DNA from: Affinundibacterium nitidum
GTDB lineage: Bacteria; Pseudomonadota; Gammaproteobacteria; Burkholderiales; Burkholderiaceae_D
Reading direction: 5' to 3'
Length of the DNA stretch: 64,000 nt
NCBI RefSeq assembly: GCF_014284155.1
Contig: NZ_JACOFZ010000007.1
Span: 91,850-155,849 of the forward strand
The notes beneath the pieces were generated by a model that worked only from the letters and a program-made list of their open reading frames with translations, was not told the origin of the DNA and searched no databases. This document shows, piece after piece, positions 13,472-15,670 of this stretch. How positions within the stretch are numbered: position 1 is the first letter of the stretch; each line of letters opens with the position of its first letter. The translations under genes were made by a program, and so were the position numbers.

Positions 13472-14116
13472 TTATTTGCCTGCGCTAACGCCACCAATAC
13501 CGTCCACCGTTTTACTGATGGATTTTGGATGTCCATAGTAGTTCAGAGAACCGATGCCTTGTACATTGGCTTTCAATTTTTCCGACGCATACACATTCAC
13601 TGAGCCGATACCCTCGACATTCGCCTCGACGTTCTCAGCAATCAACTCTTTCGCTTCAACATGACCAACGCCCTGCGCACGTACTTTAAAGTTAGTCACT
13701 TTACCGGTCATCACCAGCATGCCAACGCCTTCATAGTTCAAATCAAAACGGTCACCACTAATCTTCTTAACTGTGGTCATGCCCGCACCTTCCATTTTAA
13801 ATTTCGTCAGACTCGGCGTTGTCACAATCACTTTTAGATCATCGGAAATGCGGATGTTTTTCTTTTCTTTGTAGCTGATCAATAACTCGTCGCCAGTAAT
13901 ATCAGTAACTACTTGCGAAATGTATTTATCGTCGCCTTTCACGCGAATTGAATAGGCTGGTCCCACTTCAACTTCAACGATCAACGCACCTTGAGTACGA
14001 ATCGCTGTAAATGGAGTTGCATTACGACTTTGCTCTCCAGCCAAAGCCAAACCTGAAACCAATGTGAGTGCTGTACCAACAGCTGCTGCCATACCGAAAA
14101 GACGAGATTGACGCAT
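13472..14116 (-). CDS. Exported GIN-domain (DUF2807) protein
   Basis: A signal peptide (MRQSRLFGMAAAVGTALTLV ending GLALA) leads into a ~185-residue DUF2807 domain, recognisable from the regularly spaced beta-helix-like repeats: FKMEGAG, LNYEGVGMLVM, VRAQGVGHVEA, ANVEGIGSVNV, ANVQGIGSLNYYG. Each turn carries a G.G pair. Proteins of this kind are periplasmic or surface-exposed and have no known enzyme activity. The start at 14116 is chosen over an open extension to 14314 because TTAAGGAG lies just upstream and the signal peptide begins there. It shares a bidirectional terminator with ald. Confidence 0.88.
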   Translation of the reverse strand: MRQSRLFGMAAAVGTALTLVSGLALAGEQSRNATPFTAIRTQGALIVEVEVGPAYSIRVKGDDKYISQVVTDITGDELLISYKEKKNIRISDDLKVIVTTPSLTKFKMEGAGMTTVKKISGDRFDLNYEGVGMLVMTGKVTNFKVRAQGVGHVEAKELIAENVEANVEGIGSVNVYASEKLKANVQGIGSLNYYGHPKSISKTVDGIGGVSAGK

Positions 14117-14295
14117 TTGAAGCTCCTTAAATGAGAACTGAGTGAGTACTGAGTGAATACTGAACAATGAGTGTTGCTTGAGGTTTAACTGATTGAACCA
14201 TGGAAGGAAGTTTGCCCGTTTTTTCGAACGCTGTCTGCAAAAGGCGATAAATTGCCGATAGTGTGTGACGAACTGCAAAAAAGCCTGCCTCAAAT

Positions 14296-14324
14296 GCAAA
14301 AGAAAACGGCGCACAAGGCGCCGT
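14296..14324 (-). terminator. Intrinsic terminator downstream of the Ala/Lys-rich gene
   Basis: On the minus strand ACGGCGC (14324-14318) pairs with GCGCCGT (14312-14306), followed by TTTTCTTTTGC. It is placed 31 bases after the stop of the Ala/Lys-rich exported protein gene. Confidence 0.82.
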
Positions 14325-14354: not shown

Positions 14355-14777
14355 TTATTTCATGGAGGCGGCAGAAGCTGCTGATGCCGCAGCAGATGCT
14401 GCTTTGTGCGCTTTATGAGTCGCTTTACCATGTTTCTCTGCTGCTTTATCAGAAGCTTTTTCTGCTGCCTTTTCTGTGCTTGCTGCAGCACTAGCAGCGG
14501 CCGCTTTTACTTCAGTTTTCACTTCTGGTTTAGCCGCTGGTTTCGCTTCAGCCTTAACAGCAGGTGCGCTAGCGACTGCACTTGCAGCAGCACTGGCGGC
14601 ATGTGCTTTAGGCGCAGATGCATGGGCACTTGATGCCGCCGCTGCAGCGGGCGCAGCTACTGGTGCGCTGGCTTTCGCTGCAGATGCAGGCGCTGCTGTC
14701 TGCGTTTGCGCAGCATTTGCAAAAGCTGCACCCAAAGTAAATGTCGCAGCAACGATAGAGAGTGTGAGCTTTTTCAT
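14355..14777 (-). CDS. Secreted Ala/Lys-rich low-complexity protein
   Basis: The 140-residue product has a clear signal peptide (MKKLTLSIVAATFTLGAAFANA), then an almost wholly Ala, Lys, Pro, Ser and Val mature part. The first half is Ala/Pro-rich and the second is built of KAAEKASDKAAEK-like heptads ending in A/S runs. Helical, positively charged segments resemble histone-H1-like or phasin-like tails, but the signal peptide argues for the periplasm or cell surface. The start at 14777 is chosen because GAAGGA sits seven bases upstream; a longer frame to 14795 lacks this. No enzymatic role can be assigned. It lies divergently from the heat-shock gene hsp20. Confidence 0.75.
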   Translation of the reverse strand: MKKLTLSIVAATFTLGAAFANAAQTQTAAPASAAKASAPVAAPAAAAASSAHASAPKAHAASAAASAVASAPAVKAEAKPAAKPEVKTEVKAAAASAAASTEKAAEKASDKAAEKHGKATHKAHKAASAAASAASAASMK

Positions 14778-15062
14778 GATCAATCCTTCTTCCATTAAGT
14801 AGTGTTCTGTATCAGAACTAAAGGGTGCTTCTGTTATTCGATATTGCCTTACTTCGTTTTACATCGCAGCCTTGTTACTGCGTACTGCCATAACGGTGCC
14901 CAAGTTTTTTGTGTTGACAGCATTTTGAAATATTTTTTCGCTCGGTTTTTACCTTGTTTTTCAAATGAACATGCTAAAAGCCACCGACACAACAAATGAA
15001 AATCGTCTCAAATGGGGTTAGTTTTAAGCCTTTCAAGACCCGAATTTTTATAAATTTTTTTC

Positions 15063-15092
15063 TCTTGAAAAGTCTTTTTACCCGCCACATAT
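15063..15092 (+). promoter_or_regulatory. Sigma-32-like heat-shock promoter for hsp20
   Basis: CTTGAAA (15063-15069) exactly matches the -35 of heat-shock sigma RpoH, and CCACATAT (15085-15092) resembles its CCCCATNT -10 after a 15-base spacer. Transcription would start near 15100, giving a ~105-base leader that contains the RNA thermometer. Confidence 0.6.
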
Positions 15093-15127
15093 CCGAATCA
15101 GCAGATGCTCAAGTGAGGTCTGTCAGA

Positions 15128-15208
15128 GGTGAAAAAGATTCAAATTGCAAATCAATTTCACCACTCATATTTATTTTATCGCTTCAATTAAAAAGGATAA
15201 TCATCATG
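15128..15208 (+). promoter_or_regulatory. ROSE-type RNA thermometer in the hsp20 leader
   Basis: Two stem-loops can be drawn. The first pairs GGTGAAA (15128-15134) with TTTCACC (15156-15162), with an inner GATT/AATC helix. The second pairs TTATC-G-CTT (15176-15184) with AAGGATAA (15193-15200), leaving one bulged G at 15181 and burying the Shine-Dalgarno AAGGA. The anti-Shine-Dalgarno strand contains UCGCU, which fits the UYGCU signature of ROSE elements that melt at heat-shock temperature. Base pairing is seen directly; temperature control is inferred from the family. Confidence 0.72.
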
Positions 15209-15670
15209 CGTAATTTCGACTTTTCTCCACTCTATCGTTCCGCAATCGGCTTTGATCGTTTGGCACATTTGTTCAACGAAGCACAACGTGCAGAATCCAC
15301 GCCGAGCTACCCACCGTACAACATTGAATTAGTGAACGAAGATCAATACCGTATCAGTATGGCGATCGCAGGTTTTGATCGCAGTGAGATCGAAATTGAA
15401 ACTGAGCGTGATGTATTAAAAGTTGTTGGTCGCAAAGCGAAACCCGAAACGCAAGGCACCTTCCTGCACCGTGGCATCGCGTCGCGCGATTTTGAACACA
15501 ACTTCCGTCTAGCAGACCATGTCAAAGTCGTGGGCGCTCATCTCGACAACGGTCTGCTCAATATCGAATTGCAACGCGAAATTCCAGAGGCACATAAACC
15601 TCGTCGCATCTTGATCGATGCTGAACCACTGCGTACGGTGAATACCCCAGACCAGTTACAAGCAGCCTAA
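15206..15670 (+). CDS. Small heat shock protein, Hsp20/IbpA family
   Basis: This ATP-independent holdase chaperone binds unfolding proteins in the cytoplasm. It has 154 residues: an N-terminal arm (MRNFDFSPLYRSAIGFDRLAHLF) typical of class A IbpA-like proteins, an alpha-crystallin domain (about 35-125; PYNIELVNEDQYRISMAIAGF, HRGIASRDFEHNFRLAD, then LDNGLLNIELQRE), and a C-terminal tail. PRRIL close to the end supplies the I/V-x-I/L-type anchor in variant form. The start at 15206 follows AAAGGAT; an upstream in-frame ATG at 14996 would add an unrelated 70-residue segment covering the promoter and thermometer. A strong terminator follows. Confidence 0.95.
   Translation: MRNFDFSPLYRSAIGFDRLAHLFNEAQRAESTPSYPPYNIELVNEDQYRISMAIAGFDRSEIEIETERDVLKVVGRKAKPETQGTFLHRGIASRDFEHNFRLADHVKVVGAHLDNGLLNIELQREIPEAHKPRRILIDAEPLRTVNTPDQLQAA

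Follow-up and report, generated by a model that had tools for sequence, protein, structure and literature searches.

What controls the small heat-shock gene that lies on the plus strand at 15206–15670 (stop codon included) of the window, as we call the whole 64,000-nucleotide stretch of DNA analysed here, and does the RNA ahead of its ATG at 15206 take part in sensing temperature? The first-pass annotation of this stretch had placed both a heat-shock promoter and a ROSE-type RNA thermometer in front of an Hsp20 gene. The gene itself is as described: its 154-residue product matches PF00011 with 63.5 bits, is the only protein of the genome to do so at E <= 0.001, and has the IbpA model as its best NCBIfam match (173 bits, which is below that model's own cut-off of 212). 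The closest relative of the protein comes from an Oxalobacteraceae MAG (99% identity), followed by proteins of Undibacterium species (92–93%), and these nearest named relatives agree with the betaproteobacterial placement assumed earlier. We consider it likely, with a probability of roughly 0.87, that the leader of this ibpA-type gene acts as a short ROSE-like RNA thermometer, judging from the leader sequence, from predicted folds and from the likeness to experimentally tested leaders of other bacteria.

The element on which this reading turns is a plus-strand hairpin at 15176–15200, in which TTATC (15176–15180) and CTT (15182–15184) face GATAA (15196–15200) and AAG (15193–15195), giving eight pairs, an eight-base loop and one bulged G at 15181. 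UCGCU (15179–15183) is thereby set opposite the Shine-Dalgarno sequence AAGGA (15193–15197, with AGGA at 15194–15197), so that the 3'-proximal hairpin contains the U(U/C)GCU motif of ROSE-like elements, imperfectly paired with the Shine-Dalgarno site. The unpaired G, which a review describes as the key to ROSE elements (PMC13104619), is represented by G15181, itself opposite the Shine-Dalgarno site. With three hairpins ahead of its small heat-shock gene, the leader falls within the range of two to four that ROSE-like elements have; upstream of the 3' hairpin the first-pass annotation had seen a single further hairpin, and there are in fact two, hairpin I at 15101–15123 and a middle hairpin at 15128–15162 (both plus strand). 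The masking hairpin with its bulged G and UYGCU signature, by contrast with this miscount, was read in the sequence just as claimed, and it is the minimum-energy RNAfold structure of 15165–15208 at 25, 30, 37, 42 and 47 °C.

Conservation of this hairpin, including its anti-Shine-Dalgarno strand, is extensive. Among relatives chosen by the Hsp20 protein alone (the best 80 of 153 were kept), 79 of 80 carry it directly before the start codon, the exception being L077, and it is found in all 30 loci recovered from a genus sample in which 40 of 44 genomes had a protein match, the window's own locus being one of the 30. A survey of distinct leaders found the hairpin in 89 of 90, with the core CgCUU in 65, UgCUC in 20 and UgCUU in 4, and the doubly strong core CgCUC in none of the 89. 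Such a distribution fits selection for a 3' hairpin that can be opened, with the split mostly tracking the divide between beta- and gammaproteobacteria and so not constituting independent evidence. Further comparisons drew on 63 distinct leaders, most of them betaproteobacterial, made up of L002–L054 and the genus loci and cut by identity; L082, the locus of the window itself, belongs to this set, as does L048, a MAG with the label Moraxellaceae. One further leader with an unresolved start, L098, is outside this set and entered only the 3' hairpin survey that gave 89/90 and 30/30. Of 576 records of plasmid relatives, 338 have Rhizobium, Sinorhizobium or Agrobacterium as their first word.

When 40 compact leaders chosen from the 63 were aligned (alignment A1) and folded with no structure given, the unconstrained consensus contained the 3' hairpin as well as hairpin I, and the bulged G was present in both. 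Pairing cells made up 96.0% in A1 against 93.1% in shuffles, and two-sided changes occupied 27 cells against 8.6, all of them in the outer stem of hairpin I. These changes fell on three pairs, an unremarkable number that 320 of 500 shuffles reached. The 3' hairpin shows no covariation in A1 because it is too conserved there. With gammaproteobacterial leaders added (alignment A2, 40 hand-chosen of 90), 14 two-sided cells appeared in the 3' hairpin against 5.4 in shuffles, while the number of pairs involved, two, was reached by 219 of 500 shuffles. The loop-closing pair of the 3' hairpin is U-A in 20 of the A2 leaders, U-G in 8 and C-G in 12, and at the lower core pair 25 leaders have C-G and 15 have U-G; the bulged G is invariant in both alignments of 40 leaders.

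A covariance model, R1, built from the 40 A2 leaders with the window left out and same-genus leaders included, found the window at 15081–15208 with 47.9 bits (E 3.4e-11). The next match in the whole genome scored 17.0 bits (E 1.6, with 150 of 1517 candidates scored), and we set aside this and another weak match of 14.9 bits, both at loci without Hsp20. Scans with R1 scored few candidates per genome, so that their counts are lower bounds: in 200 genomes of the order there were at least 10 matches, the window's own included, and all nine others precede an Hsp20 gene; in 369 genomes of the class (E <= 0.1) there were at least 21, again with the own match included, and of the 20 outside its own genome 13 lie at loci with an Hsp20 gene and 7 at loci that lack one.

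The outcome with the Rfam ROSE covariance models, which had been put forward as a check, was negative: neither RF00435 (ROSE) nor RF01832 (ROSE_2) matched in the window, nor at a relaxed threshold in 14900–15400, and neither matched in any of 196 genomes of the family. RF01832 does match in E. coli, and of 299 genomes sampled from the phylum 19 have a match to RF00435. Matches to the rox2, DdR5 and caiA families on 14900–15400 scored far below the gathering scores and were rejected as chance. We read the misses as a gap in the two ROSE models, because R1, which was made from leaders of other species, detects the window with high significance, and because the leader has the defining motif in conserved form. 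The leader is therefore filed as ROSE-like, outside both Rfam families; it shares the context of the gene and the motif in the 3' hairpin with RF01832 (E. coli) and with RF00435, which we take to be of alphaproteobacterial type, and yet neither model recognises it. Since both models miss such leaders, surveys relying on the two of them would overlook this group.

Sigma-32 promoters consist of CTTGAAA and CCCCATNT-like boxes, 11–16 bases apart. Ahead of the hsp20 gene, at 15064–15092 of the plus strand, CTTGAAA (15064–15070) is followed after a 14-base spacer by CCACATAT (15085–15092); the sigma-32-like promoter reported earlier thus stands, with its spacer shortened from 15 bases to 14. By chance, 0.03 occurrences of this pattern would be expected per window, and two were observed, one before hsp20 and the other as a back-to-back copy on the minus strand. 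In the mostly betaproteobacterial set, a sigma-32-like −35 box stands in all 63 leaders, and 54 of 63 have it together with a fitting −10 box, whereas both boxes were found in 23 of 6300 base-shuffled leaders. Such a sigma-32-type promoter would raise hsp20 transcription on heat shock; its position points to a transcript start near 15098–15100 and to a leader that would be 107 bases long. The earlier suggestion that transcriptional and translational heat control combine at this Hsp20 gene fits these observations, and it is a combination already known, sigma-32 control together with a ROSE-like leader having been described for P. putida ibpA (PMC3669281).

How might such a leader respond to heat? 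At growth temperature, UCGCU of the 3' hairpin would pair with AGGA of the Shine-Dalgarno site and keep ribosomes off; upon warming, the weak, bulged and A-U-rich 3' hairpin would be the first to open, with the two hairpins upstream of it remaining closed, and IbpA would be made. We infer this order of opening from conservation, from relative stabilities and from the likeness to the tested Pseudomonas leaders. Between 30 and 42 °C the predicted stability changes from −9.5 to −7.0 kcal/mol for hairpin I, from −9.6 to −6.8 kcal/mol for the middle hairpin and from −3.6 to −1.7 kcal/mol for the 3' hairpin, which is the weakest by far, so that it alone of the three would be near melting. Folding with RNAfold at 30 and 42 °C, as the first-pass annotation had suggested, confirmed the hairpin but not its opening at 42 °C, where GGA is still about 94% paired; opening is gradual and small, with GGA half-open only at 62 °C, and hence RNAfold predicts no switch by itself. 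The published ROSE structure reportedly contains non-canonical pairs around the bulge, which the rules of RNAfold exclude. Predicted half-opening temperatures scatter widely across the leaders, from 10 °C (the lowest tried) to none up to 70 °C, and we do not use them as evidence for a switch. One might then suppose that the hairpin is there by chance or has no regulatory role, the promoter alone regulating the gene, as the silence of the Rfam ROSE models and the missing switch at 42 °C in RNAfold would allow. We hold this to be very improbable, as the presence of the hairpin in all but one of the 80 relatives speaks strongly against it, and the consensus fold and the independent R1 match do so too.

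The thermometer reading draws on the ibpA leaders of Pseudomonas, with which the window leader has in common the ibpA gene, sigma-32 control (predicted for the window), the U(U/C)GCU motif, the unpaired G opposite the Shine-Dalgarno site, and a stable hairpin I ahead of a weak 3' hairpin (PMC3669281). Compared by the published description, the window leader differs in its additional middle hairpin, its A-U-richer 3' hairpin, the C-G pair beside the bulge, and its length, 107 bases by our estimate against 61–62 (PMC3669281). RNAfold gives the 3' hairpin −3.2 kcal/mol at 37 °C, and heat-responsive 3' hairpins of Pseudomonas have −4.1 to −7.6 kcal/mol (PMC3669281); being weaker than these, the hairpin of the window may repress in a leaky manner. 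For P. putida it was reported that replacing U-G by C-G next to the bulge lowers induction to 1.7-fold, that this replacement together with deletion of the G locks the leader, and that deletion of the G alone leaves 6.8-fold induction (PMC3669281). The window leader has C-G beside the bulge and weak flanking pairs, an arrangement that might bring a lower working temperature or, again, leaky repression. The Pseudomonas leaders are heat-responsive in E. coli and in vitro without need for hairpin I, and the same paper describes the function of this hairpin as not fully understood (PMC3669281).

What, then, might hairpin I do in the present leaders? In the window, where both RNAfold and conservation support it, it reads GCAGAT, a bulged G at 15107, CTC facing GAG (15115–15117), and GTCTGT. 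Its core is a pyrimidine, a bulged G and CUC facing GAG, then G, as in the 3' hairpin; both cores fit Y, bulged G, CUY facing RAG, G, a likeness that was noticed post hoc. A search for GCTC..GAG with at least six outer pairs found hairpin I in 60 of the 63 mostly betaproteobacterial leaders and in 1 of 12,600 shuffled leaders; gathering by motif search favours detection, and the unbiased support is the A1 consensus fold. Among gammaproteobacterial leaders, 11 of 27 have the core (GAG then G or A) and 16 lack it. The CgCUC core occurs in hairpin I of 17 leaders, 10 of the 60 mostly betaproteobacterial ones and 7 of the 11 gammaproteobacterial ones. Because the outer stem covaries and the core hardly varies, the core seems to be held for its sequence and not for pairing alone, and its repetition within the leader hints at what hairpin I may do.

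In E. coli, IbpA acts on the leader of its own messenger, which it binds and whose translation it represses; R93 is essential for this, and IbpA of C. neteri and of V. harveyi likewise represses through its own leader (PMC10474464). The equivalent arginine is present in the window protein and in all 80 relatives (the best 80 of 153). Drawing on the nearly invariant core of hairpin I, on this arginine and on the self-repression in E. coli, one may entertain, tentatively and at rather long odds, the idea that the ROSE core occurs twice per leader for a purpose, one copy being heat-labile over the ribosome site and the other locked in hairpin I as a putative dock for IbpA or a decoy for ribosomes. 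If that were true, a single leader would read temperature through one copy of the core and free chaperone through the other, and the hairpin I core would offer a concrete candidate site for IbpA on its own messenger, where the available part of PMC10474464 names none. Several observations argue against docking: hairpin I is dispensable for the heat response in Pseudomonas, the E. coli ibpA leader yielded no hairpin I in the same motif search, and the core is lacking in the 16 gammaproteobacterial leaders mentioned above.

A rival reading, in which the leader is chiefly an operator whose bulged-G hairpins are bound by IbpA, with repression lasting until aggregates remove the protein and melting being minor or additive, strikes us as unlikely. 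It would account for the self-repression by IbpA in the three gammaproteobacteria and for the essential R93 (PMC10474464), for the matching arginine in the window protein and its 80 relatives, for a nearly invariant hairpin I core within a covarying outer stem, and for the small extent of melting at 42 °C by RNAfold; the arginine, however, might owe its conservation to something else, heat response in Pseudomonas leaders does not need hairpin I (PMC3669281), and the very leader that IbpA is known to bind, that of E. coli, is one in which the motif search found no hairpin I. The window resembles the self-repressing systems in its thermometer-type leader and in an IbpA-type protein that has the arginine equivalent to R93; as a difference, the self-repression described in the available part of PMC10474464 concerns gammaproteobacteria only. 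A ROSE-like thermometer remains our preferred reading of the leader.

The middle hairpin, predicted by RNAfold, has a counterpart in the nearest relative, L002, with arms GGTGAAA..TTTCACC in the window and GGTGAGA..TCTCACC in L002, and is missing in compact leaders. Long leaders with a middle hairpin are L020, L022, L026, L032, L038, L041, L049, L086, L094, L095 and L100, and its sequence, judged by eye, varies by lineage as if it had been inserted or renewed several times. A 20-codon frame that starts with GTG at 15129 and ends just before the Shine-Dalgarno site was considered as an upstream reading frame and rejected, because the matching GTG of L002 runs stop-free into the hsp20 ATG and the frame is thus not conserved. 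Also considered was an alternative fold in which 15090–15094 pair with the Shine-Dalgarno strand; RNAfold predicts it from 37 °C upwards for an RNA that begins at 15090, and the putative start near 15098–15100 would exclude it.

What is new here needs to be judged against the ROSE elements of other bacteria, among them one from Variovorax, which is a betaproteobacterium. This published and tested element, one of the ROSE-G thermometers, stands before an ABC-transporter gene; it is related to the window leader through an anti-Shine-Dalgarno motif with a bulged G, and it is distinguished by CUGCU, two opposed bulged Gs and association with ABC-transporter genes, where the window has UCGCU, one bulge and an Hsp20 gene (PMC12857270). 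Neither CUGCU nor opposed bulged Gs on both strands, the marks of ROSE-G, were found in the window leader. ROSE elements have been described for alpha- and gammaproteobacteria (PMC10474464, PMC4166951, PMC2873474), and literature searches of partial coverage turned up none that belongs to a betaproteobacterial small heat-shock gene. Given this negative result, the Pseudomonas precedent and the Variovorax element, we therefore regard the present leaders as a probable new branch of a known type of control, which would extend ROSE-like regulation of ibpA to Undibacterium, Herminiimonas, Herbaspirillum, Noviherbaspirillum and other relatives. Three Hsp20 genes (L023, L039 and L044) occur in Herminiimonas fonticola S-94, each with a ROSE-like 3' hairpin, and the leader of L044 has lost a recognisable hairpin I.

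Lastly, the minus-strand copy of the promoter pattern deserves a comment. This second sigma-32-like match, at 15010–15037, lies back to back with the hsp20 promoter across a gap of 26 bases and faces a minus-strand gene at 14355–14777 for an alanine-rich protein; the next minus-strand gene, at 13472–14314, encodes a DUF2807 (head GIN) domain by profile match. Of the 10 closest loci, 9 (L002–L009 and L011, not L010) have such a divergent match, which in all nine faces the alanine-rich protein gene; among the 53 loci L002–L054 it is kept in 15. The window copy of the alanine-rich protein has no Pfam or NCBIfam match, its N-terminus looks like a signal peptide, giving it a secreted appearance, and its gene is probably heat induced as well. 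In three other Undibacterium loci (L012, L014 and L017) a divergent sigma-32-like match precedes another gene, whose product looks like thymidine kinase.
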